From Dermatophagoides farinae (Eukaryota > Arthropoda > Arachnida > Sarcoptiformes > Pyroglyphidae), in the NCBI RefSeq assembly GCF_024713945.1, contig NC_134683.1, forward strand, positions 4,403,501-4,467,500: a stretch of 64,000 nucleotides of DNA. The letters run 5' to 3'. Shown here in pieces: positions 6,832 through 60,889 of this stretch. Both the position numbers and the translations under genes were made by a program. The notes under the pieces are model-generated. The model did not search any database. It worked only from the letters and a program-made list of their open reading frames with translations, and was not told the origin of the DNA. Positions within the stretch are counted from its first letter, which is position 1; each line of letters opens with the position of its first letter.

Positions 6832-9800
6832 ATGAAAGTCATTTACGATACATATCGTCGTCATCGACATAATAGCTCAAATAAGAATAATAATAACAAC
6901 AACAACAACAACAATAATAATAATAATAATAATAATCATATTGAAATCTGTCATCCAAATTCATCATTGATGAATAACAGTAGTGATAATAATGGTATCG
7001 GTAATAATCATCATCAAAATCATGATTCATCATCATCCACGATAAATGTTGATCATCATCATCATATGATTGGCCGTGTACAGCAAACAACATGTCGTCA
7101 TATTATATCGGCTGATTCATTGGTCATTAATAAAGAACTTGGTATCGGTGAATTTGGTGTCGTACAACAAGGTATGATTGATTGATTTTTTTTTGATTCA
7201 AATTTCATTTTCATCATCATCATCATCATCATTATCATTATTATTAGGTGTTTGGACCAATGAAGATGGACAACGTATACAGGTGGCCATAAAATGTCTT
7301 TCGGCAGCACGTTTAGAAAATTCAAGAATTGAATTCCTAAAAGAAGCATCAATTATGCATTCAATTTCACATGAAAATATTGTAACATTATATGGTGTTG
7401 TGTTGGAACCTTCGGTTATGTTAATCACAGAATTGGCCCCATTACGTTCATTATTAGAATGTCTTAAAGAACCGACATTGATTGCACATTTTCCATTAAC
7501 ATCATTGTGTTTATTTGCTGCACAAATTGCTGATGGTATGTCATATCTGGAATCTAAACGACTTATACATCGTGATCTTGCTGCACGTAATTTACTGGTG
7601 TTTAGTAAAACAAAAGTGAAAATCTCTGATTTTGGTCTTTCACGTGCATTGGGTGTCGGTAAAGATTATTATCAGAGTAATTTTAATGTTAATCTGAAAT
7701 TACCGATTGCATGGTGTGCACCGGAATGTATTAATTATTTGAAATTTACATCACAATCCGATGTTTGGGCATATGGTGTCACATTATGGGAAATGTTTTC
7801 ATTCGGATTTCAACCATGGGCTGCATTAACTGGACAACAGATTCTTGAAGCTATTGATATGCCAAATTATCAACGACTAGAGCGCCCAGAATGTTGTCCA
7901 AAAGAATATTATCAATTAATGTTAAATTGTTGGACACATGAACCAAATTTACGGCCAAAATTTTCCGAAATTGTCACACTATTACCGGATTGTAAACCAG
8001 AACTATTACAAGCAATCAAAAATTCCGATAACGCGAATATGAAAGATTATCTTTCATATAAATCTGGTGATATTGTCACAGTAATCGATAAAGATAATCT
8101 GGATGATGATGATGATTTGAATGATAGCAGCAATGGTAATGCGAAACTTTTATGGAAAGGTGTTACTAATGATAGAAAAACTGGCCTAATTAATCCAAGT
8201 GATTTTGTTGCATATTTGGGACAAAATTTACCATCATCTAATAGTCATCATAGTCATTATCAATCTTCAAGCTCATCATTTGTTCATTCATTACTTTCCG
8301 GTGGTGGTAGTGGTAGCGGTGGTAGTGGATCCGGAAATTCAAATGCTAACCAAAATCATCACAATAACCACCACAATCATCATCATCATCATCATTCACA
8401 TTCATTAGCATCAACAATAACATCAACTGTTTTACAATCATCGAGATTTTTACGTGGATTTTTGGAATCAAAAAATCATCAACATAATGGTGGTAATCAT
8501 CATCATAATTCACCACATGGTCAACGTAAACACCAGCACCATCAACAACAACAACAACAACGTTTACGTCCAGAAATGATTTCTCGTCCACAAGGTGATC
8601 TCAAACATACTGGTCATGTTGGTGCTGATGGTGTTTTTTTTGGTGATGTTTCATTTCTTGAAGGTAAATATCATCATGTTCCACCATCATCATGTTCATC
8701 AACTAAATCAAATGGTGCATCCAATAATGATATGGATACGAAATCTTCCAAGATTAATAATCGTAAATTAATCATTTCTGGTCCTATTCCGAATTTCAAT
8801 CGAAACAGTATAATTGATTCAAAAACAGCAATCTATTCAAATTACAAATCATGAATATCATGAAATTAGTGATGAAGAAAATGATGATATGGTTGGGGCA
8901 TTAGAAAGTCCACCGTTTGAGGTTTGTTATTATAAATCAATAAATTGATGATGTTTTGTGATTGTTTTTTTTTCTTGTAGGTTCTTGATTTTGGTCCATC
9001 ATTAATGGAGGAAGTATTCCGAGAATTGGATCACATAAAACCAGATTTAAATAATGATGCAGCTGAAAGTGAAACAGCTATCAATGAAAACAGTATAAAT
9101 GTTAAAAATGAAGTTCGTGAATTAAACCTGAAGATTAGTAAAGAAACGAATAATTTGAAAAAGAAACAATCAACCGTGAAACCAATTTCAGAAGCTGAAC
9201 AAAATGAACTTGATTCAGCCATTGCAATGGCTAAAGATATTGCTAATCGAACAATGATGGAAGATGATCTTGATATGACGAAAAACGACTCACCGAAAAC
9301 ACCAAATTCACCAAATAAACAAAAGAAATTTTCATTCAAATTTCCCGTTACTGGACATCGATCACCAAAAAGTGAACGTCGAACATTTAGTGAAGAAACC
9401 GAATCGATTGGAAACATAATCGAAAGTATTACACCGGCAGCTAAAGAAGCTTATATGTCATTAGTAGACAAAGGTGTATCATCCAGTAATAATGTTGTTT
9501 GTCCACCATCATCGGCACCACCACCACCACCACCACCTTCGTCTACAACGACACATAAAGAATCAACGACTTTCAGCGATTATGATCCATCATCATCCAC
9601 CACTATGAATTCAATGTACAATGTTGATAATGATCATCATGATCATTGCGACGATGGAATCGAAAACAATCCATTACGAATGTTACGAACAGCCGGTATT
9701 GGTAAAGTTTTACGGCCAAAAGTTCGTGGTAATCGATCATTTTCACAACCACGATTACCAACTACAGCACAAACGGCTGGTCTTGCCCGTGTAGCGTCAT

Positions 9801-11280: not shown

Positions 11281-12011
11281 TTATTAGTAGCTCGCTATCG
11301 GGTGAACAAATTCAACGCACAACAAATACAAGACAATAGAATATTATTACAATCAAATATAGCCAAAAATGATCAAAAAAAAATCCTATTTATAATCCAA
11401 TTTGGTAGCTTTGTTTTTTTTTTGTTTACAAAAATTATAATCAAAACAACTATTGAACACACCCCCACTACTACTATGAAAATGATCTACAACCACACCT
11501 ACAATACACAGCTAGTCTATCCATTTATTTGAAAAAAATTTTTGAATTTTTTTTCTATTTACTCTATGAATTTTTTCACAATTTTGATGTGACATTTTTT
11601 TTATATTTGAAATTTTTTTCTCTATTATTATCATCGATTTTCTACAATTTTTTTTATATTGATTTTTTTTTCATTATAAAATACAAAATTCTTTTTTTCA
11701 AATAAAATTGAAATTTCGGTAACGTCATTTATGTACGTACAGATTCTGGATTCTGTTTTTCGTTGTGTGTGTGTTTCTGGAACATTTTTTTTTTTTGGTA
11801 TTGTTTTGGCTGGTTGATCCATTCACTCGAATTGTCGAATGCGGGTTTTTTTTGTATTTGTTGCGAGCGTAAAAAAATGTTTCTCAATCACCATCATCAT
11901 TATTTGATTTGCAATATGTCTAATTTATGCCGTTTTTTTCGTTTGTTTGTTTCTGGTTCACCGGAAAAAGAAGATGTTCAATAATATCTGACATTTGGAT
12001 CCGAGAAAGAA
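11281..12011. other. Ack 3' UTR and spacer before Megf8
   Basis: AT-rich and T-tract-rich sequence without a coding exon. AATAAA at 11701-11706 is the likely Ack cleavage signal. The remaining ~300 bp must hold the Megf8 promoter or leader, unless Megf8 has an upstream exon; no TATA box is obvious. Confidence 0.5.
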
Positions 12012-15000
12012 ATGAAACGACCATTTATTGGAAAATATAATTTCATTTTATTTTCATTCATAATTTGGATTAGTTTTTCATTCATACTGGATTCGTATGC
12101 AATATCCGATTATTATCGTCGAATAATATCATCGAATGATACAATTTTCGGTACAATTACCAACGATCGTGATGGTGAACATGAATGGCTATTCAAAACG
12201 AATGATCCTCTATCCATCATCAAATTTATTAATATTCAATTTATTTGGATTAATTTATCAACTTGTAATTCAACAACGGATACAATCTATTTGTTCAATG
12301 GTGATTCTTATGAAGATCGTCTCATCGGTTCTATTCATGGTCCATTTTATGGCCAATCATCACAATTGAAACCATTTGTTGGTAATCGAAATCGATTATT
12401 GATGATATACCATCGTCAATCATCATCATATGATGATTTGCCAACATTTTCATTGCAATATTCATTTACGAATTGTCCATTGAATTGTACGAACAATGGA
12501 CATTGTATCAATAATCAATGTCACTGTAATGATCACTATGGTGGTGATGCTTGTGATTTAGATACACGTACTGAATATGATTGCCCCACCAAACGTATTG
12601 GTTCATCATGCAATATCAATATCAATGATGTACAGTCAACCAAATGGTTCGAATTATTTTCTAATCAACACATTTTCTCTGCTCGTGCATCTCATGATTC
12701 AGTTTATGATCGCCATACTGATCAAATCTATACATTCGGTGGACGTAGCTATGAATCAATTTATGGAGATTTATTATCATTTTCAATTACGAAAAATAAA
12801 TGGTTCAATTTAACTGACTGTGATAACAAAAATACTTACAACAACACCAACAACAACAGTACAAATCAACCAAAACCACGATGGGGTCATACCATGAATA
12901 TTATTAATGATTCATTGATTATATTTGGGGGAATCGGTGCAGATGGACATCAATTCAATGATATTTGGATATATAATCTAACCAATTGCCGATGGATCCA
13001 ATCAATAGACAATAATATTCCGGCACTTGCATTTCATGTTGCAATCATTGTAGATAACCAATGGCTTCATATTCATGGTGGTCGTTTCGAGAATTCCACA
13101 TATTCATCAAATATTTATCGTATCAATTTATTATCATCATCAAATTATCAATGGGAATTGGTTCGATCATTGAATAAAGGTCGAACATTAGCTGCACATA
13201 CTGCCATTGTTTATAATCGATCTATAATTGTATTTGGTGGAATCAGTGGCACAAATGGAAAGCTTTCGAATGCAATGTATCAATATGATATCGATCACAA
13301 TTATTGGTCCAAATTACGGTATTCACAAGAAACGAAAAAAAATGTTGTTGTGCCAGAAAAACGTGCATTTCATTCCATGATACTTGTTGATGATGATGAT
13401 GATTATCTTGTGATTTTTGGTGGATTCATTCAAAACAATGATTGTCTTGGTGATGGTTCGCTAACATATGCTTTCTCGTTGAAATCTAGATATTGGACTA
13501 AATTGAATGATATCAGTGAAAAATTTCCATTCAAATCAATCATTTCACATACCTTGGTACGACGAAAAAATTTATTATTCATTATTGGTGGTTATTATGG
13601 CCAGATTCGTAATGAAATTTTTGTCACACAGATACACTGGAACAGCAGCAGCTATTTCCATCATTATCATCACGTGGACAACAAGAATTCTGAATTAATC
13701 ATATGGAAATATTTTAATGTGCCAAACATTTCAATGCCTGATGTGATGACAATTCAGACAGTGGATCAAATGACCATTCCTTGCCAATTACTGCCAAATG
13801 AACAAATGATACGAATTTTTGGCTTTATTCATCCATTTGGCGCGCAAACATTTGATAAAAATTCTCTAAGAATTTATCTTCATAACGATGTTGATAATGA
13901 TTCCAAGAACAATAATTCTACATTCGAATCGATTGCAATCAATACATCATCATTTGTTAATCATCAATTTATTGATTATATAATTCACTTACCGATTCGA
14001 ATTGTAATGGATCAATTAGATTATGACAGTGATATTCAAATGACTTGGAATGTAATTACTACCGTGATGACGAATGAATCGAATAATTTTCAGCTATCAT
14101 CATTCATCCATGCTCAAGACCAATGTCATTCATATTCAGATTGTTATAGATGTCTTACGAACGTTGCTTGTGTATGGTGTCCATCCCGGTCACAATGTTT
14201 GATTCGTAATCATTATGAAATGAATTTATGTTCCGGGTATAATGAACATAATTTAATGATTGATCCAGAAGAATGTATCCAATGTTTTAATGTGGATAAT
14301 TGTCAACAATGTCTTCAACAATGGCCATATTGTCAATGGCTTGTTGATTATGAATTGTGTGTACGTCGAGGCCGAATAATCAACAATTCGATTATGATTA
14401 CAAATATTGAAAATTGTCCAATGGATTGTGCTCAAAGAAATCAATATGAACATTGTGTCGATGGAAACGGTAATTGTATTTGGTGTGAATCAATGAACAA
14501 ATGTCTCCGGTGGTCACAGCGAATCATTAGCGAATTATCATTATTTGATTTTTGTCGAAATTCATCATCATTCATCATAACCAATGATCGTAATGTACGT
14601 TCGACAAATGAATGTGCAATGGGAACTTATGGCAATAGCAATTCTGGTTGTCTGCCTTGTAATTGTAATGGACATGCTAATCTTCATCATGGTGTATGCC
14701 ATTCACAAACCGGTATCTGTTTCTGTCAAGATAATACCGAAGGTTATCATTGTGATCGTTGTCGAACCGGTTATTATGGTGATCCACGAAATGGTGGTAT
14801 TTGTTTTCAAGAATGTCAAAATAAAGCATTCATTTCGATGGCAACATTTGGTCATTTTGGATCATACATTCGTTCTGATATTTATCGAAATTTTTATTCA
14901 ATGAAAAAATCTGAATCACAATTGTTGTTGACCACCAAATCACATTGTATGTGGATTATTTCAACTGGTGATGAACAACAACAAAATGAATTTCAATCCG

Positions 15001-18000
15001 AATCAGATGGCCATAGAAACCCAGTTCAAATCAATATATTTCAATCATTTAAATTGAATTGTTCACATAGTACATTAATCATTTATGATGGAATACCCGA
15101 TATCGTTTCGGCCGATAATCGTATTGCGAATCCTCAAATTTTAGCATCAATTTGTGGTGCTAATCAACGATATGATTTACAATTTATTGCTTATTCTGGT
15201 ATTGCAACCGTTTTATATAAAACCGATAACCATCAACAACAACAAGGATTCAATGCATCATATCAATCATTAATGTCTTCCAATTTAACGGCAACAACAA
15301 CAAATCAATCGAATTCATCATCATCATCAATATTGATGACAAAAATTCAATGGCCACTACATTCACATACACTTGAATATTTTGATAATTTTCTAATTTT
15401 TATTGGTGGTCATCCGCATTCAAAACATCATCTTGGTTTGTCATTATATTCACTAGATAATAATCAATGGATTCAATCAGATCTTGAATCAAATTCGAAT
15501 GGACTTTTTTTCCCATCGAATCGATATCTTCATGCAACAGCATTAATTCAGAATAAACTTTATGTTTATGGTGGATTAGATATTCGTACGAATGAGATTT
15601 TATCAGAATTTTGGTGTTTATCATTTGCCAACGATCACCATAATTCCCTTAATCCAATATGGATCAACCTAACAGCAACAGTTAATTTTACCAATCCAAT
15701 GAATCATCGAATACCACCATTAGTTGGCCATACATTGACCAAGATCAAATTTGGTGAATCATTGAAAAACAATAATGATGATGGATATGCATTGATTTTA
15801 ATCGGTGGTTTCTCTACCACCAATGGTTATTCTTTCAATCAATACATTTACAGACCACATCAGAATGAATGGATATTATTGATGACTAAAGGACCATCAC
15901 CATTAGGTATTGTTGGCCATTCAACTGTTTATCAGTCCGAATCAAATATGATTTATGTATTTGGTGGATTAGATTTTAAAGAATCACATAAAATGGCCAT
16001 TTCGAATACGTTGTATACACTTGATTGTCAATCATTGGTTTGGCATCGTATACAACCACGTTCGGTATTGAATTCTATAACACCGCTTTATCTACATTAT
16101 TCAATTTCATTTAGAAATTATATGTTTGTATTTGGTGGTAAAAAAATCATCAACGATTATCGTAACGATGACACAACGACGACAATGAAGAAATCAAAGA
16201 AAAATGACTATCCAATATCATATGCCTATTTCTATAAATGTAATCGATGGATTGCAATGATTAATGTTTCCACGTCATCCTGGTGGAATACATCGATTTT
16301 AAATCATCACCACCAACATGGATCATCATCATCATCATCATCATCATCATGGTCAATGACTATTGATTCGAATGATTCAAAAACTATTTATTTGTACCAG
16401 TCATCATCAAAATCGTGGTCAATTGAAACAATTCGATTACCAGATGATTTTTGTAAATTTTTTTCCAACGATCAAAAACGATGTTTATCAACTGATGGAT
16501 GTTCATATTGTCAACAACAACAACATTTGAATGAAACTTTAACCGGTGTTTGTTTTGATCAATCATTGTCATCACAAAAGTCAACGGGTATTGAGACTTT
16601 GGATTGTTTGAAAATAATAACAAGTGATAAAACAACAACAACAAATTGTGCAACGAAAAAAGAATGTAATCAATTTACAAATTGTGGTGATTGTACGGCA
16701 GCTAATTATGAATCATCGAGGCGGCATGATGATGGATGTCAATGGTGTGCTGATTGTCATATGGCTAATGGACAATGTTTACGTATGAATGATACATGTC
16801 AATGGGAAAATGAATTCACATCGTCGGTTGGTGGTGTTGTTGTTGTTGGACCGACAACATGTAGTAATATTAGCCTAATTGAAACGGATCATTGTTCTAC
16901 TCGTCGTTGTTTAGCCACCGATTGTCAGAAATGTTTATTACTTAATGAACGTCGTTTACGATCATCATCATTTTATCATCACCATTCACATCATAATCAT
17001 CAGCTTGGTGATTGTATATGGACCAAACAGGTATATAAATTTATTCGATTTGGCCATTCAGCAATACCAACGAATCCAATATTTGATTGGGCATGTATTG
17101 ATTCATCGATTGTTAAATATTCGGATAATGAAAAATGTTCCCACAATACCACCATTAGATTGTCCTAAACGATGTAATGATTACAATAGTTGTACAAGTT
17201 GTTTGGAAGAAACCAACCACCGGTGATGAAAGTGGTAGTCATGAATGTGTATGGTCCGAATTAACCAATGAATGTATGTCACCAACATATATGGCCATTA
17301 AATGTCAACATGGTTTTTGTGGCATCGGTGGTGGTTTTATTTATCGTCTTCATCATACAACACAACAATGTCCACCGGAATGTGAAACATTTGAAAAAGC
17401 CGTCGATTGTCTTTCATTATTACATTGTGGTTGGTGTGCTATCGATGGTTTAGCTATCGATGGTGTTGGTTTCTGTTTGCAAGGCGGTTTGTTTGGTCCT
17501 AAATATCAATCATGTTCAAATCAATCATCAATAGATTTATTAAGTCAACTTAATCACAAACCTTATTATGTACCAATGACTGTGTTGAAAACATCATGGC
17601 ATTATATACAATCACCACCGGAGAATGAATGTCTTAATGGTCATCATACATGTGATATGAAATCACAGAATTGTATTGATCTTGATGAAGGATTTATGTG
17701 TCAATGTAAAAGTGGTTATCGAATGTATGAAAATAATAATATTTGCAAACCAATCTGTCAACAAGGTTGTGTTTATGGCATATGCGCCGTACCAGATGTT
17801 TGTCGATGTCATTTTGGCTATATTGGGGATGATTGTTCTATCGAATGTCAATGCAATGGTCACAGTACTTGTCCATCGGCTGATCAACGAAACATTTGTA
17901 ATGAATGCCATAATAATACACAAGGAAAATGGTGTGAAAAATGTAAACCATTTTTTGTTGGTGATCCAACAACAACATCAACAACAACAACAACGAAAAA

Positions 18001-19840
18001 TCGTCTATCATCATCATGTCAACCATGTTTTCGGTTTTGTCATAATCATTCAGAATTATGTTTCGATGAAAATGATTTACAGAATTTAACGACAATGGAA
18101 ATAACCAAATTCGATGATGATTATTGGCATGAATATGGTCGAACAAAAATCCAACATGGCCCATTATCGGAACCATCGACAATCTGTGTGAATTGTAAAA
18201 ATAATACCGAAGGGGAACGTTGTGATCGTTGTCGACTTGGCTATTTCAAGATCAGTGATAATATTCATGATGGTTGCCGTAATTGTATGTGTAATGGCCA
18301 TGGTACTGTTTGTAATCCATATAATGGTGAAAATTGTGATTGCCACAATAACACCGAGAATGATCGTCAATGTAATTATATGAATTCAAAAGAATATAGT
18401 AATTACATAAATAAGACTTATTTTTTTAAATCATCACAAATAATGACCACATATTCATTGCCATGTTGGATGTTACAATGTTCAAAATGTAAAGATTATT
18501 TTTATGGTCAACCAACTGGTGGTCATCAATGTTATCGTCATATGTATTTGGATAAAGAATATTGTATTGATCCACAGACACAAGAAAATTGCCTACATCA
18601 TCGATTACAACAACAAAAACCATTGCTAAATGGTCGTACAATGTTTTTTGGAATACAACCACGTTATATGAATGTTGATATTCGATTAATAGTGTATGCT
18701 ATTGAAGGCCGTATTGATCTTTATTTGGCATCAAGAGATGATATTTTTATCGTTAAAGTTGATCCAGAAAATGGATTTCATCGTTTGTTTATTGATAAAA
18801 AATATCTGCGTAATATTTCACAGTATAATATGGCCAATAATGATTCTAGCAATGTAATGATGACAACAATGAATGAAACAAAAATTTCTGATCTTTTGGA
18901 TTTGGGCGGCTCAACCAATGTGACATTAAAATCACCATATCAAATGATTTTGGCCGATATGAATGGTGAGATATCATCATATTTTACAATGAAAAATTTA
19001 TATGAAATTATTGTGGTGAAAAATATTGAAAATCGTCTCGAAATAACCATACCATATCGATATCATGATCTTCGAACGACACGTTATTATATAATGATTC
19101 GTGGTTCATTCCATAATGATTCGGATGAAAATCAAGCGTTCATTGTACTACGACAAGATCAAAGCCGTATTGATTTATTTATATTTTTTTGTGTTTTTCT
19201 TTCATGTTTTTTTCTTTTCTTGTCCATGTCGATAATGTTTTATCGTGTAAAACAAATAATTTCCGTATATCGTGCAAGACATTTACAAGAAATTGAATTA
19301 GAATATATGGCTAATCGGCCATTTACATCGATAACCGTTCTCATGGATGATGATATAAAGAATCGACGCGAATCATCAGAAATGATATTTCGGCTATACA
19401 ATGAATCAACAACAGCGATGATGATGACACCACCATCAAAACAATATCGTCGAACAACTACGACACAATCAATTTTTCGTCAATTAACATCTGGTTTTAA
19501 AGAATCACCAAGGAAAATTTATCCAGCAGATCATCAACATCATTCAATGATGAAAGAACAGATGAAAAATCGTAATGAAAATCTTGTGACACCGATGCCT
19601 GTATCGATTGAATTTACAAATGATAATATGGCAGCAATATTTACAACATTAATTCGATTTCCAAATGATGATAATAGTAATCGACGACCTATACAGATGG
19701 CAGCTGCATCTACATTAGTAAGAAATTGTCCATTATTATTGCAAAAATTATCAACAACATCAGCAGTTACCAGTAACAACAACAACAACAACAACAACAA
19801 TCCAGGATCTGTTGCTGGTGATGAAAATAATGCAAGATGA
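12012..19840 (+). CDS. Megf8: MEGF8 (multiple EGF-like domains 8), apparently intronless
   Basis: A type I membrane protein of about 2608 residues after allowing two one-base corrections. Order: signal peptide (residues 1-30), CUB-like domain, EGF (CTNNGHCINNQCHC), Kelch repeats (~195-550), PSI domains (~705-860), laminin EGF (CNCNGHANLHHGVCH), second CUB, second Kelch set (~1110-1480), more PSI repeats, a calcium-type EGF, laminin EGFs, and one membrane span near residue 2385 (IDLFIFFCVFLSCFFLFLS). The cytoplasmic tail has MANRPFTSITV at 19307-19339, matching the MASRPFA-type motif. In vertebrates that motif lets MEGF8 recruit the ubiquitin ligase MGRN1 to lower Smoothened levels. Drosophila Megf8 acts at synapses and in the epidermis. 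Two frame breaks lie at 17140-17142 and 17220-17221, inside one PSI repeat. The first frame reads 1718 residues to a stop at 17168, and a third frame runs 17177-19840. AATAAA at 19966 is a candidate poly(A) signal. Confidence 0.93.
17140..17221 (+). other. Double one-base frame break inside a Megf8 PSI repeat
   Basis: Three frames are needed within about 80 bp to read the conserved PSI repeat: frame 1 to NEKCS, frame 2 for PPLDCPKRCNDYNSCTSC, frame 3 for ESGSHECVWSELTNECM. Skipping one C in CCC (17140-17142) and one C in CC (17220-17221) restores a continuous product. No splice sites fit without removing conserved cysteines. Conserved residues (PPLDCP) lie upstream of the first in-frame stop, so the slip precedes that stop. 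Confidence 0.75.
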
Positions 19841-30338: not shown

Positions 30339-30579
30339 TTTTTCTGAACCATGTGCTGCCATCTATTGATAACAAAAACAACCACGTTTCCGAGGTACCG
30401 AAAGTGGCGACGCCTAGCGGATTTTTACTGAACTAAAATTTTGCGAAAAAATGACAAAAATTGCCAAAAAATGCAAAAATTTTAGTTCAGTGAAAATCCG
30501 CTAGGCGTCGCCACTTTCGGTACCTCGGAAACGTGGTTGTTTTTGTTATCAATAGATGGCAGCACATGGTTCAGAAAAA
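30339..30579. repeat. 104-bp near-perfect inverted repeat (foldback element)
   Basis: Arms 30339-30442 and 30476-30579 are reverse complements over 104 bp with a single non-Watson-Crick pair (T30426 against G30492). They are separated by a 33-base A-rich loop. Each arm contains CTGCCATCTATTG (30356-30368; reverse complement at 30550-30562) and a relatively GC-rich block with GGTACC and GGCGACGCCTAGCGG. It has no coding potential and no clear target-site duplication. It lies 179 bp past the stop codon of the TRPM gene. It could be a small foldback/MITE element, a hairpin-RNA source or a paired boundary element. Confidence 0.95.
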
Positions 30580-30757: not shown

Positions 30758-33700
30758 TCATATCCAATTAGTGTTAATCATTCGAATAGCATTATCAATG
30801 AATTGTACCTGTTCCATTGGCATCTGTACAAGCATATCTTCATTATAACTAATCCATGATAATTGTGAACGCGTTGATGATGGACAATTTGAATGACGAT
30901 AATCACCATCATTCATATCATCATTTTGATCATCATCTCGTGTAATCATTGTATCGGTTAATTTCCAATCAATTTTATCATTAAAATGAAAATGATAAAT
31001 TTTCACTTCTTTCCATCCATTATCCGTATTATCTGGACTGTCCATATAATATGCTTGTGCTGGTATCACCGATTTTATCTGTGGATCGATTGAGCGAAAA
31101 TATTCCAACAAATCATTATCATTATTCCATTTATTGTAGATGGAATTTTTGTCAAACTTTCGAAATAATTGTCGTAAATCACTGAACATAATATCATCAC
31201 CAATAAATCTCATCGGTGCGAATAATGAGCTATATTTTCGTTCCAAAGCAAATTCATGTATAGCATGAATTTGGCCACCACCACCATTAATAATTCGAGT
31301 TCTTGATACTAATAACATCACATAATGATTTGGTCCCCAACGTGGTAGATTTCCTTTGCCACGTAATCCGGTACGGCCCCAAACATTTAATGGTATACCA
31401 TCTTCATCAAGTTTATAAATGATAAGATTATTTATTGGCTGTTCATTAGTAGCCATGATTTTCGGTGATAAATTACAATCAAGTAGGTCCCATGCACCTA
31501 AATCTTCTTTGATCCACGAACGACGATCGATAGTTAATCCGGCCGGATTAACCGAAACGGCATTCCAATTGAATACAGGTAAATGAGATGAGATATTGGA
31601 AGAGGTGAAAGAACGTTTAACAATTGTTTTTAAACGTTCTTTCACAGCCAAAAGATCTTCATCTACCCATTTTTTCAATGATGTTGGAAAATTTTCACGT
31701 TTCCTCGAGTAAATAACTGGATCATAATTAATCCAGATAATATCCCAGGATACGAATTTATCCGCTACAGGAAATCGTTGAATTCTTGTACCAGCATATG
31801 GTGATAATCTAGCCAGATAATGTAAGCCAATCGCTTGTATTTGTGATTGATTTGTCAAATCCATCATTGTGGTTGATCGTTGAATTGTTGTTGTGGCTGT
31901 TGCAATCGTACGTTTATGCAGTTGTTGTTGTTTTGGTCGCAATAATGTTTGACAAGAATCACCAATGATGCCAACACCACCAACATTGGCGGATGATGTA
32001 TCGATATGTTTAATTGTTTCCAAACAGATTTGTGTCTGATACATCATTCTTTCAAATTCATTCATTTTAGTTTTAATTGTACGCAGAATAGTTTTTTCAT
32101 GTTCCAATTCTTCACAAATTAATTGAATCGTATCAGTTTGTTTACTGATAACATCTTTTTCATCTTCTTTACGTTGTTGTTCATCATAAATTGCTTTAGC
32201 CAAATGACGCCAATAATTATAATCTTCTTTTGATAAACGTTTTTTGTAATTATCGCCACTACCACTACTACCATCATTACCATTATCATCTTGAACAAGA
32301 AATACTCCTTCTCTTGAAGAATCGATTGTATCACCGATACGATTGTTCTTCTTTTTCAATCGATTTCGACAACAATTACAAGGGAATGTTAGGATATTGT
32401 ACCAAAATTTGAGAAGAACATAGCCATATTTAAATAAACTTAATGGTGCATGTAAAGCAGGACGATTAGCAAAATCAATGACTAAAATATAACGTTGATA
32501 TTTCCAAATATTATCCGTCTCGGTTTGTAATTTAGTTGCAGTAGATGCAAATAGTGCATACAGCAGTGTCATTAGGATCAGTTTTAGACAAATTAAAAAT
32601 TGAAATGTAAATGCATATGACCAAAAACCGGATACTGGACATGATTGTGACATTGGTATCGGTTTCACTGGACATAATTCTTCACGATTTATCGGTTCAT
32701 TCAATGATTCAGTACCAAGTATGACGGTTTGAAGAAAAATTGATGTCAAATTAGCCATCGATTTAAATGTATTATCTGCATCGTTTGTTTTTGGTGTCGT
32801 CGTTGTTGTTGATAGATGTTTCGGTGGTTTAATCGTACAATTACGTGTCAATTCATCAACAGGTGTTGTAAATAATGAAACAATAGATCGATGGATGGCT
32901 TTATGAAACATTTCACGACTAAGTTCGGTATTTGGATATAACAATGCTTGAATTATTATACCCGAACTAATCAATAGGATCAGTGCCATTCGCATAAAAT
33001 GAATAAAATCAACAGATACCATCAATTTGAAACGATACAATAATGGACCCAGCGTTGGTGATATAGGCAGATAAATGTAGAATAAACGATAATAAAAATA
33101 AAGTAAACCGGCACTAAGTATAACTTTCATTGTGTATGGATCAATATTATAACGAGAAAATAGATGACCATGTATTGAATATGAATAAACGATCAGTACA
33201 CGTCCCCATGTATACGTAAGCCAGAATATTATCAATAGAATGCTTTCCAAAATACGAAAAAACATTGGTACCGATGTATAACGACGATAAAGAACATAAA
33301 CACGACGTATATGTTCAATTATGTTTAAAACTGGTGAAGAAATTAAACGAAAAAAAAATTCAAATTATTTTCATTTAAATTAATCATTACAAATAAATAC
33401 TAACAGGTCCAAACACAAACGGTTAAATCTAATCGCCATTCACCACAGCCAGGCCATATTAATGCTAAACTTAAAAGAGCTAAAAAAATAAAATTTAAAT
33501 AAATAAATTTATGATCAAGTAATAACGAAATATTCATATACCAAGATAGATAATATAGAAAACATGATAGGTCCAAAATTTCGTAATCGGTGAATTCCAA
33601 AGTAAATTAATCATCTTAAATAATGGTGGCTGTTTATCGATGAATAGATTGTTTCTTTCACGATCATATGATGATTTATTTTTACTACTACTGCCATGTT

Positions 33701-36700
33701 CTTGATCAGTACGATGATGGCCGTAATGTTTTTGTCGTTTACGATTCCAACGTGTTAATGCTGCACGTACTTTATCGTCCAATGATGAAATTGTTAATTG
33801 ATTATCAAATAATTGTTCATTCAAGTTTATGTTGGATTTTTTCACATTTTCATCGGGATTTCTTCGTCGTCGTTCATCAATAGCTTTATGATCAGAATTC
33901 AATGGTATTAATTTCAATTCATCTACTGCTTTCGCTAGGAAATCATCATCATCATCATTACTATCGTTTGAATCATCAGCTTGATTGAATTCTTCTAAAA
34001 GTTTTGTTTTATATTCAGTCCATTTATGATTTGTATCAAGAAATCGAATCCAAATATACATTGGCAATATGAAAAAAGCCGAAACAATAATCTTGATGAC
34101 TGGTGGTATTGTCAAGAAGCCCCAGCTTAATTCACGTACACGAATACGTCCATTGAATGTATTAGTGAGCCATTTCTGACAGCAAGGATGTGCAATAAAT
34201 GCACGATGACTACCATTCGCTGCTATATCCACTGCGGTTTGTTGATCCCAATCGGAATTTTTTTGGTCCAATAAATCATAACCACGTTGTTCATCATTAC
34301 GATAACATGCGTCCAATACATCGATAGCAAATTTAGCGAAAATTTTCGATTCATTTTGTAAATCATCTTTGATATTTTGTTCCGACACAAACCATGCCAT
34401 ACGATCGAGTATCATCGATAATATCAATCCGAGGTGGATAGGTTGATCCGAATGTTTCCAAAGAATTTCAGCCAATTTAAAACGACGATTAAAAACCGCC
34501 CACATAGCTAATGTTGCTAATGCTTTACGTTCAGAGGAACCGGCATCCACCTGATACATTCCCATTATGTTTAGACACATATCATGTGGACTAACAAAAT
34601 TATGTAACGATGTCGTAGTAAAAATTAATTGATTAAATTCATTGGAAATAAATTTTTCCGGATCAATATTCGAATGACTAGGTGATGCTAAACGTCCTAA
34701 TAATTCTTCAAAATTATCTGACCATACTGGTACACCAAGTATGGCTTCCATACAAACTGTACGAAAGAAATCCGATTCCAACAGACTATAACGAATTAAA
34801 CGAATCAAACGAAATGGTGTTAAGTATTTATGTATTTTAAAACCATGCGTGAGAAAAAGATCAACAAAATCTTCACGATTTGATTTCAATACGGCTAATT
34901 CAAATATTGATTTTTCCAATTGAAGATTATATGATGGATTACGTGATAATACTTCATCCAATGCAACCAATGGACAATTCCAATCCAATGTTAGATAGAG
35001 ATCTTTTCGTATTAAACTAGAATCTAATTTATCACGACGATGTTGTGATTTAAATAATGATAACAATATAAATTCTGATAGATTTGTTAAATCACAACTA
35101 GAATTGTGCATATTCAATATGGAAAGATAAACACGTCCACGTGGTGATCCAGATTCACGGACACATTCAATAATACGATCACGAAATGTATTTCTTGCCA
35201 TAGCATTATTACGAAATTCAGGAAATTGTTTGACAATTTTCTGCACTAGTAATGGTTTCAATGTTTGTTCAACAAATTCAGCGTCCCATGCATGATACAA
35301 ATCACGGCAACGATGTTGCATTTCAATATAGGCATAGGAAAGAAGATCAGCAAAACCGCCGGATCCACGAAGAACAATAATTGGATTACGGCGACGTATA
35401 TTATCCAATACTAGTTTAGCACAATGATAATCACCTTGTATTACCAGACATACGACTGGTATCATTTTTTCATTCGTTTCTTTCATTGATCTTGAATCAT
35501 TTTCCAACATTGGTGACATTGGTCTTGCACCACTTACATCATCTTCATAAACCACAGTACCTTCTGGGCTAATGAATGAATGTTGATCTTCATCAAATTT
35601 TTCATCATCACTATTATCATCATCATCATCATCTGATTCGGCATCAACCATATCTTGATCGTAACCAAAACAATTGGTTTTCTGTCCATATGATGGACGA
35701 ACAATTATATCTAAATTGGTGGCTTGTTGTTGTTGCGATTTTTGAGGTAGTTTTTTCGATGATGAATGCATTTTTCTTCGTCGACGAATAATATTTGATT
35801 GTTGACGATCACCAGATGATGGTATATAATGTGAACGAAATTGTGGTGGAATATTTGAATCACGATAATGGTGGTCATGATCATCATTATCATTATCATT
35901 GTATAATTGTTCCGTTGAAGATATCGTTCGTTTAGTTAGATGATCAATAAGATTAATCATTAAATTATGATAACAATCATCAGAATTTGAACTTTGAAGT
36001 ACGATGAAATTTGTATGCATTGGATTCAATTCATAACGACGTTGATTTGGTATTGGGCCCGGTTTACTGAGCTGAATATTTGGACCGAAAAATTCTTGTG
36101 TATAACTTAGATTAAAATCATTTGTAATGCCAATGATGGGGAAATGTTTTCGTGATTTTTCAAATGACGAACGATAGGTTTGCATTTCATTTTGTTCTTC
36201 AATCAATGCATCACCAATCAGTTTACCAACACCGATATCAAGACCATTGGTTACAAGCCACATACTTGTAGTTTTAGCTGCCTAAGAAAATAAATGGAAA
36301 AAAATTATGAATATTTCTCATTACCAACAACAGCAACTTACTTTCATAACACCGGTACGAAATGAAGCCATTTGTCTTGGATTATTCCATGTACGAAAAT
36401 GATCTGGATCGGAAAGCAGGAATAATGCAATACGTGGCATTGATACGTGCCATTCATCGAATAAAATTTCTGTAATATTTTTCATTTCAACATCCGCTGT
36501 TAAATAGATATATGGACGTGAAATAGATCGTTTTGAATCACTAATCGACAGTGGATAATCAACATCGAATACAAGATTACCGCCACTAATGACACCTTCT
36601 TTAACATTACCATCTTGATCATGATAAAATTGTTTGCTCTGTTGTTGTTGCTGTTGTATGAAAGGTGATAATTGTTTTTGGATTTTTTTAATCGATTTGG

Positions 36701-37022
36701 TTCGACAACTTGGTTCTTCCAATAATGTGCCAGCATTGATCGCCATATTTTCCTCTTTACGTTTAGCCTTGGATAATTTATTAGCCACCTGTACTCTGGT
36801 TGCAAACTGTTTGAATGTTTGATCAATACGTGAACTAACACGTGAAATATTTGACATTGATACAGTTCGTGATAGATTTGTTGTTGATATATTCTGTGGA
36901 GCATCTTTTGATGTTGTTGCATTTGTTAATGGTGATGGTGTTTCATCTTCATCATCATTTTGATTTATTGGTGGTGATTTATTCGACGACGATGATGGAT
37001 CCATTTTTTTCGTAATATTCAT
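30758..37022 (-). CDS. TRPM2-like: TRPM2-type cation channel with C-terminal NUDT9-H domain
   Basis: Four exons on the minus strand, 37022-36342, 36281-33542, 33479-33405 and 33330-30758, encode 2022 residues; introns are 60-74 bp. The N-terminal TRPM homology (SLOG/LSDAT) region spans exons 1-2 (RPYIYLTADVEMKNITEILF, WLVTNGLDIGVGKLIGDAL, VCLVIQGDYHCAKLVLDN). It holds a long Asp/Gln/His-rich insert. Six membrane segments follow: S1 across the exon 2/3 junction, S2 EWRLDLTVCVW, S3 RILESILLIIFW, S4, S5 near IHFMRMALILLIS, and S6 FLICLKLILMTLLYALFA with the TRP helix (DNIWKYQRY). A coiled coil comes next (IQLICEELEHEKTILRTIK). The end is a NUDT9-H-like domain (GRTGLRGKGNLPRWGPNH, SPDNTDNGWKEV). 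In TRPM2, ADP-ribose binding at SLOG and/or NUDT9-H opens a Ca2+-permeable channel. Insect Trpm lacks this domain. Confidence 0.9.

Positions 37023-51972: not shown

Positions 51973-60889
<8,917 letters not shown>

Follow-up and report, generated by a model that had tools for sequence, protein, structure and literature searches.

A predicted dust-mite melastatin channel with a catalytically degenerate NUDT9-H domain, probably of the TRPS (soromelastatin) type

The stretch of 64,000 nucleotides of the Dermatophagoides farinae genome analysed here (the window) carries on its minus strand, at 37022-30758, a gene, predicted from the genomic sequence, for a transient receptor potential (TRP) channel of the melastatin kind that ends in a NUDT9-H domain. 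The assembly encodes a group 2 allergen that agrees with Der f 2 (1ahk) at 119 of 120 residues, which marks the source as D. farinae or a very close relative. Our analysis indicates that the gene probably encodes a channel of the TRPS (TRP soromelastatin) type, with a NUDT9-H domain that has lost its catalytic residues and with gating that is probably not of the TRPM2 kind.

Gene structure and domain organisation

The gene consists of four exons with GT-AG borders, which together give 2022 codons with a single terminal stop and no internal stop. Exon 1 (36342..37022) encodes residues 1-227, comprising a low-complexity N-terminus and the beginning of the melastatin homology region MHR1/2 (SLOG); exon 2 (33542..36281) encodes the remaining SLOG with a low-complexity insert, the melastatin repeats and the start of S1; exon 3 (33405..33479) runs from the end of S1 to the start of S2; and exon 4 (30758..33330) holds S2-S6, the TRP helix, a linker, NUDT9-H and the stop. 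The domain order is therefore SLOG/MHR1-2, melastatin repeats, S1-S6, TRP helix, linker and NUDT9-H, where the six membrane segments were taken from alignment to TRPM channels and the linker is coiled-coil-like by appearance only. The N-terminus is not Cys-rich, with one cysteine (C106) within residues 1-168, although a further 5' exon may have been missed.

Pfam matches in exon 2 were LSDAT_euk, with SLOG in TRPM at E 8.8e-21 and its prokaryote relative at 1.3e-9, and the TRPM2-like domain (2e-28); exons 1 and 4 gave nothing above the cut-off, neither Ion_trans nor NUDIX being recognised in exon 4. A phmmer search of the whole protein against PDB sequences found TRPM channels along its length, the best being Nematostella TRPM2 (E 7.9e-57, 195 bits). 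The NUDT9-H domain (residues 1661-2022, 30761..31846), delimited by sequence search and alignment, was matched in a search of the same type with the last 362 residues by Nematostella TRPM2 (E 1.1e-18), human NUDT9 (2e-17), human TRPM2 (7.3e-13) and choanoflagellate TRPM2 (6.8e-7). The original prediction that SLOG, channel and a NUDT9-H-like end lie in one gene at 30758..37022 is thus borne out by an uninterrupted frame and by the Pfam and phmmer matches, and both strings that it quoted are correct, HRSIVSLFTTPVDELTRN lying in the S5-S6 loop and SSLFAPMRFIGDDIMFS at the Nudix position.

Placement outside the TRPM2 side

Nematostella TRPM2 heads the ranking of the whole protein because of the NUDT9-H domain, and this rank is lost once the domain is left out. 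When the channel part was searched without NUDT9-H and the low-complexity stretches, taking the best PDB chain of each kind, TRPM3 scored highest (200 bits), followed by TRPM5 (175), TRPM1 (173), Nematostella TRPM2 (164), TRPM7 (153), human TRPM2 (148), TRPM8 (132), choanoflagellate TRPM2 (124) and TRPM4 (104.5). An unrooted tree of 8 rows and 867 columns (LG+C20+F+G4; Nematostella TRPM2 and TRPM3 incomplete, TRPM7 represented by its channel only) joined the window protein to a paralogue on contig C6 (100/100), set TRPM3 and TRPM7 apart (99/99) and separated the beta side, that is Nematostella, human and zebrafish TRPM2 with TRPM8, from the mite rows (94/96). With the window protein but not the paralogue, the beta side was supported at 99/99 and the alpha side at 87/93; with the paralogue but not the window protein, at 87/89 and 100/98; and omission of TRPM7 gave 100/98 for the beta side. 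The window row lay outside the beta rows in all three runs that contained it. In approximately unbiased (AU) tests, a grouping of vertebrate TRPM2 with whichever mite rows a run contained was rejected in each of three runs (p 1.4e-5, 1.3e-4 and 2.9e-5), and in the 8-row tree a grouping of the mite rows with vertebrate TRPM2 and TRPM8 together gave p 0.027.

On these comparisons the gene is placed outside the TRPM2/TRPM8 side, and the TRPM2-type label of the original prediction is not supported. The TRPM tree that had also been suggested there, run here with vertebrate and Nematostella rows, sets the window protein apart from TRPM3/TRPM7 as well as from the TRPM2 side. An insect-type Trpm was rejected on that tree position and because the bilaterian TRPM-alpha family is described without NUDT9-H in the relevant sections of Morini et al. 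2026 (PMC13143021); TRPM-gamma, which the same sections place in arachnids, was rejected because it is likewise reported there without the domain.

A very fast-evolving TRPM-beta gene, a true TRPM2 orthologue surviving in some mites, is an improbable explanation. It would account for Nematostella TRPM2 being the best full-length PDB match, and for a grouping of the mite rows with Nematostella TRPM2 that the AU test did not reject in the 8-row tree (p 0.084). However, that match loses its rank without NUDT9-H, the same grouping was rejected in the other two runs (p 0.012 and 0.018), vertebrate TRPM2 was rejected throughout, and the part of PMC13143021 that treats arthropods reports TRPM-beta as missing from them. 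The window protein resembles TRPM2/TRPM-beta of Nematostella, human and zebrafish in domain order, C-terminal NUDT9-H and TRP box, and differs in tree position, filter, ADP-ribose contacts, Ca2+ site and Nudix glutamates.

Agreement with described TRPS channels

TRPS is described in PMC13143021, as far as its family descriptions go, as a sister family of TRPM with a melastatin region, a retained NUDT9-H domain, no Cys-rich N-terminus and two pore cysteines; substitutions at the pore positions are noted, and the residues for ADP-ribose hydrolysis are given as non-conserved in every TRPS checked (molluscs, C. elegans and amphioxus, with no arthropod among them). A D. pteronyssinus TRPS, drawn from Himmel et al. 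2020, is named there, and a mite 'TRPM3-like' protein is moved to TRPS. By that description the window protein is alike to ced-11 of C. elegans and to D. pteronyssinus TRPS in its melastatin region and TRP channel, in a NUDT9-H domain whose catalytic residues are lost, in an N-terminus that is not Cys-rich and in its pore cysteines, of which it has three rather than two. Assignment to TRPS, which rests on anatomy, exclusion and the literature, with TRPS sequences compared by description only, is accordingly probable rather than certain.

A dust-mite TRPS and the non-conservation of catalytic residues in TRPS are already in print (PMC13143021, in the sections cited). None of the papers listed in our literature searches, which covered main papers, deals with the D. 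farinae gene, a second mite relative lacking NUDT9-H or a missing canonical TRPM, any of which may already be known; the portions of PMC11479946 on the choanoflagellate channel contain nothing on arthropods.

Pore, Nudix box and ligand sites

The filter stretch F1319-T-T-P-V-D-E-L1326 (32849..32872) places FTT where TRPM channels have FGQ or FGE in the alignment, so that the filter is divergent, as had been predicted. The S5-S6 pore loop (32621..32941) contains the three cysteines, C1330, C1385 and C1396, with 10 residues between the last two. The channel may have the unusual ion selectivity that was proposed for it, although the selectivity of an FTT pore is not predictable from sequence.

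The consensus motif of Nudix hydrolases is GX5EX7REUXEEXGU. This motif of active NUDT9 is not matched by the window NUDT9-H: in the box remnant R1873-F1891 (31154..31210) GG is replaced by RF and REFGEE by QLFRKF, and the claim that the GG and catalytic glutamates are missing is therefore correct. The mite's own NUDT9 ADP-ribose pyrophosphatase (C3:2188417) is identical to the window NUDT9-H at 72 of 262 aligned residues and shares with it the motifs GRTG..G.L.RWGPNH and NTDN.W; it keeps GG, REFFEE and the D, R and Y contacts, whereas the window domain differs by its lost catalytic box, its lost named substrate contacts and its fusion to a channel.

At the residues which we take to form the Ca2+ site of TRPM2 (E843, Q846, N869 and D872), the window protein has H1172, R1175, R1191 and E1194, and the C6 paralogue has Y, H, K and E. 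The ADP-ribose contacts of TRPM2 were mapped as named in the structural sections of Huang et al. 2019 (PMC6759353). In MHR1/2, the counterpart of R302 is I, with N or L under a shifted alignment, and R358 is replaced by G536, Y295 (H in the alignment) being set aside as not safely alignable; in NUDT9-H, D1431 becomes S1930, R1433 becomes D1932 and Y1485 becomes P2003 or the adjacent Q. None of the nine residues (five ADP-ribose contacts, four of the Ca2+ site) is kept. Among columns invariant in the TRPM rows, by comparison, the window protein retains 74/137, the paralogue 77/137 and both together 59/137; at about 50% retention the chance of keeping none of nine is about 0.002 by simple multiplication, a value to be read with the caution that the sites are non-independent and two of the alignments uncertain. 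E843, Q846 and R358, which are replaced in some other TRPM channels too, mark TRPM2-like sites and not all TRPM channels.

Retention within NUDT9-H was compared on the columns invariant among three box-intact sequences, where the window protein keeps 44/94 outside the box and 2/12 inside (p 0.064), and human TRPM2 62/94 and 7/12; on a stricter column set the window protein keeps 36/62 outside and 1/7 inside (p 0.044).

Proposed function and alternative explanations

The sections of Iordanov et al. 2019 (PMC6461439) on the Nudix box report that human TRPM2 is gated by ADP-ribose despite a dead box, that box mutations leave ADP-ribose gating of Nematostella TRPM2 (nvTRPM2) normal, and that invertebrate TRPM2 boxes are canonical (REFxEE, against QLFRKF here). 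A dead box alone is uninformative on gating because the nvTRPM2 mutants gate unchanged, and the argument against gating in the TRPM2 manner therefore rests on the contact residues. A hydrolase-dead ADP-ribose sensor, whose NUDT9-H and/or SLOG cleft would still hold ADP-ribose in a rebuilt pocket, with binding opening the pore in the way known from vertebrate TRPM2, is consistent with these reports and with the retention of the motif GRTGLRGKGNLPRWGPNH, including H1346, a histidine common to all five aligned rows. Replacement of R302, R358, D1431, R1433 and Y1485, loss of the GG and replacement of the Ca2+-site residues argue against such a sensor, which we consider possible though unlikely. 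Thus, of the 'ADP-ribose sensor without hydrolase activity' first proposed, the absent hydrolase agrees with the lost catalytic glutamates, while the sensor is doubtful with contacts at both sites replaced.

That the NUDT9-H stretch is decaying, or lies outside the transcript or protein, is very improbable: the box is degenerate and the C6 paralogue has no NUDT9-H match, but the 362 codons contain no stop or frameshift, share one exon and frame with S2-S6 and preserve nearly half of the invariant columns outside the box.

Several observations weigh against a TRPS-type channel that is not gated in the TRPM2 manner. Clade membership is judged indirectly, the tree having no TRPS, TRPM-gamma or insect rows; the mite branch is long, and the Nematostella TRPM2 grouping survives the AU test in one of three runs. 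E843 and Q846 are replaced in TRPM3 and TRPM7 too, and R358 in TRPM8, so the sites are not all TRPM2-specific; a replaced contact is not proof of lost binding, and around Y295, R302 and Y1485 the alignment is uncertain. The window protein retains H1346, the loss of the Nudix box is only suggestively, and modestly, above background, and single-sequence structure prediction of NUDT9-H was unusable (mean predicted local distance difference test score 32, predicted template modelling score 0.19).

If the gene is of the TRPS type, as we favour, its product would be a six-membrane-segment cation channel of the melastatin kind, probably tetrameric, with an FTT pore whose selectivity would be hard to foresee. 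Its NUDT9-H domain, which retains several family motifs without the catalytic residues, would not hydrolyse ADP-ribose, and the channel would not open through cytosolic ADP-ribose and Ca2+ as TRPM2 does, because the residues that form those sites in TRPM2 are replaced. Instead, the domain may act between subunits in a structural or allosteric role, perhaps for another ligand.

TRPM-type and NUDT9 genes elsewhere in the assembly

Across the assembly (62.4 Mb, 22 contigs), SLOG-in-TRPM and TRPM2-like domains were found at two loci, the window gene on contig C7 and the paralogue at C6:3986334-3990755, whose pore reads GIVSLFTGP and whose S5-S6 loop has one cysteine. Identity between the two proteins is 35% over 1134 columns and 39% over 514 in a second alignment that overlaps the first; they share none of three intron positions as far as the C6 open frames show. 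No NUDT9-H was found at the paralogue in 6.3 kb downstream (E up to 1) or in a genome-wide search. The unrooted tree is compatible both with a late TRPS duplicate and with a TRPM-gamma as the identity of the paralogue. The branch path between the two mite proteins (1.27) favours a late duplication, being shorter than the path of about 1.6 (summed branches) that separates the Nematostella and human TRPM2 rows. TRPS is described as single-copy outside some molluscs in the sections of PMC13143021 cited, whereas D. farinae would have this second relative without NUDT9-H.

No third TRPM-type gene was found with TRPM3 pieces, PF18139 and PF25508 as queries, in a search in which only the best candidates were scored, the TRPM3 channel query overlooked the C6 gene and assembly completeness was not established; canonical TRPM is thus apparently absent from the assembly. 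Two other matches were rejected as TRPM by eye, C1:7445052, obtained with the TRPM3 query, being a TRPC-type channel and a weak match on contig C4 being TRPN-type. The stand-alone NUDT9 at C3:2188417 (locus 1369-2294) has an intact Nudix box. One scan each of prokaryote and viral contig collections, with exon 2 as query, found no relatives.

A broader scenario, which we put forward tentatively and consider less likely than not, is that house dust mites may have lost all canonical TRPM, two diverged channels of the TRPS type now serving the melastatin functions. Both would have an F-T rather than an F-G filter; one would carry a NUDT9-H that neither hydrolyses nor binds ADP-ribose and has been rebuilt to serve structurally or to bind a new ligand, and the other would lack the domain. 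TRPS is apparently little studied in the literature searched. Two TRPS-like channels, only one of them with NUDT9-H, in a mite that apparently lacks a canonical TRPM would allow a natural test of the role of the domain where it does not act as an enzyme and probably does not act as a receptor for ADP-ribose either. D. farinae would also show how an animal manages when TRPM-alpha, a gene that Drosophila keeps, is missing.

Surroundings of the gene

Just 3' of the gene, at 30339-30579, lies a near-perfect inverted repeat with arms of 104 nt that are 99% complementary and 33 nt apart. Copies occur on contigs C1, C7, C8, C9 and C10, with at least 20 matches (both strands counted, self included), and the repeat resembles a miniature inverted-repeat transposable element. 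Other open frames in the window, judged by eye, appear to encode a USH1G/Sans-type ankyrin protein (350-2269), an Ack-type tyrosine kinase (7178-8854), a MEGF8-type protein (11985-19840) and a homeodomain piece (59700-60437).

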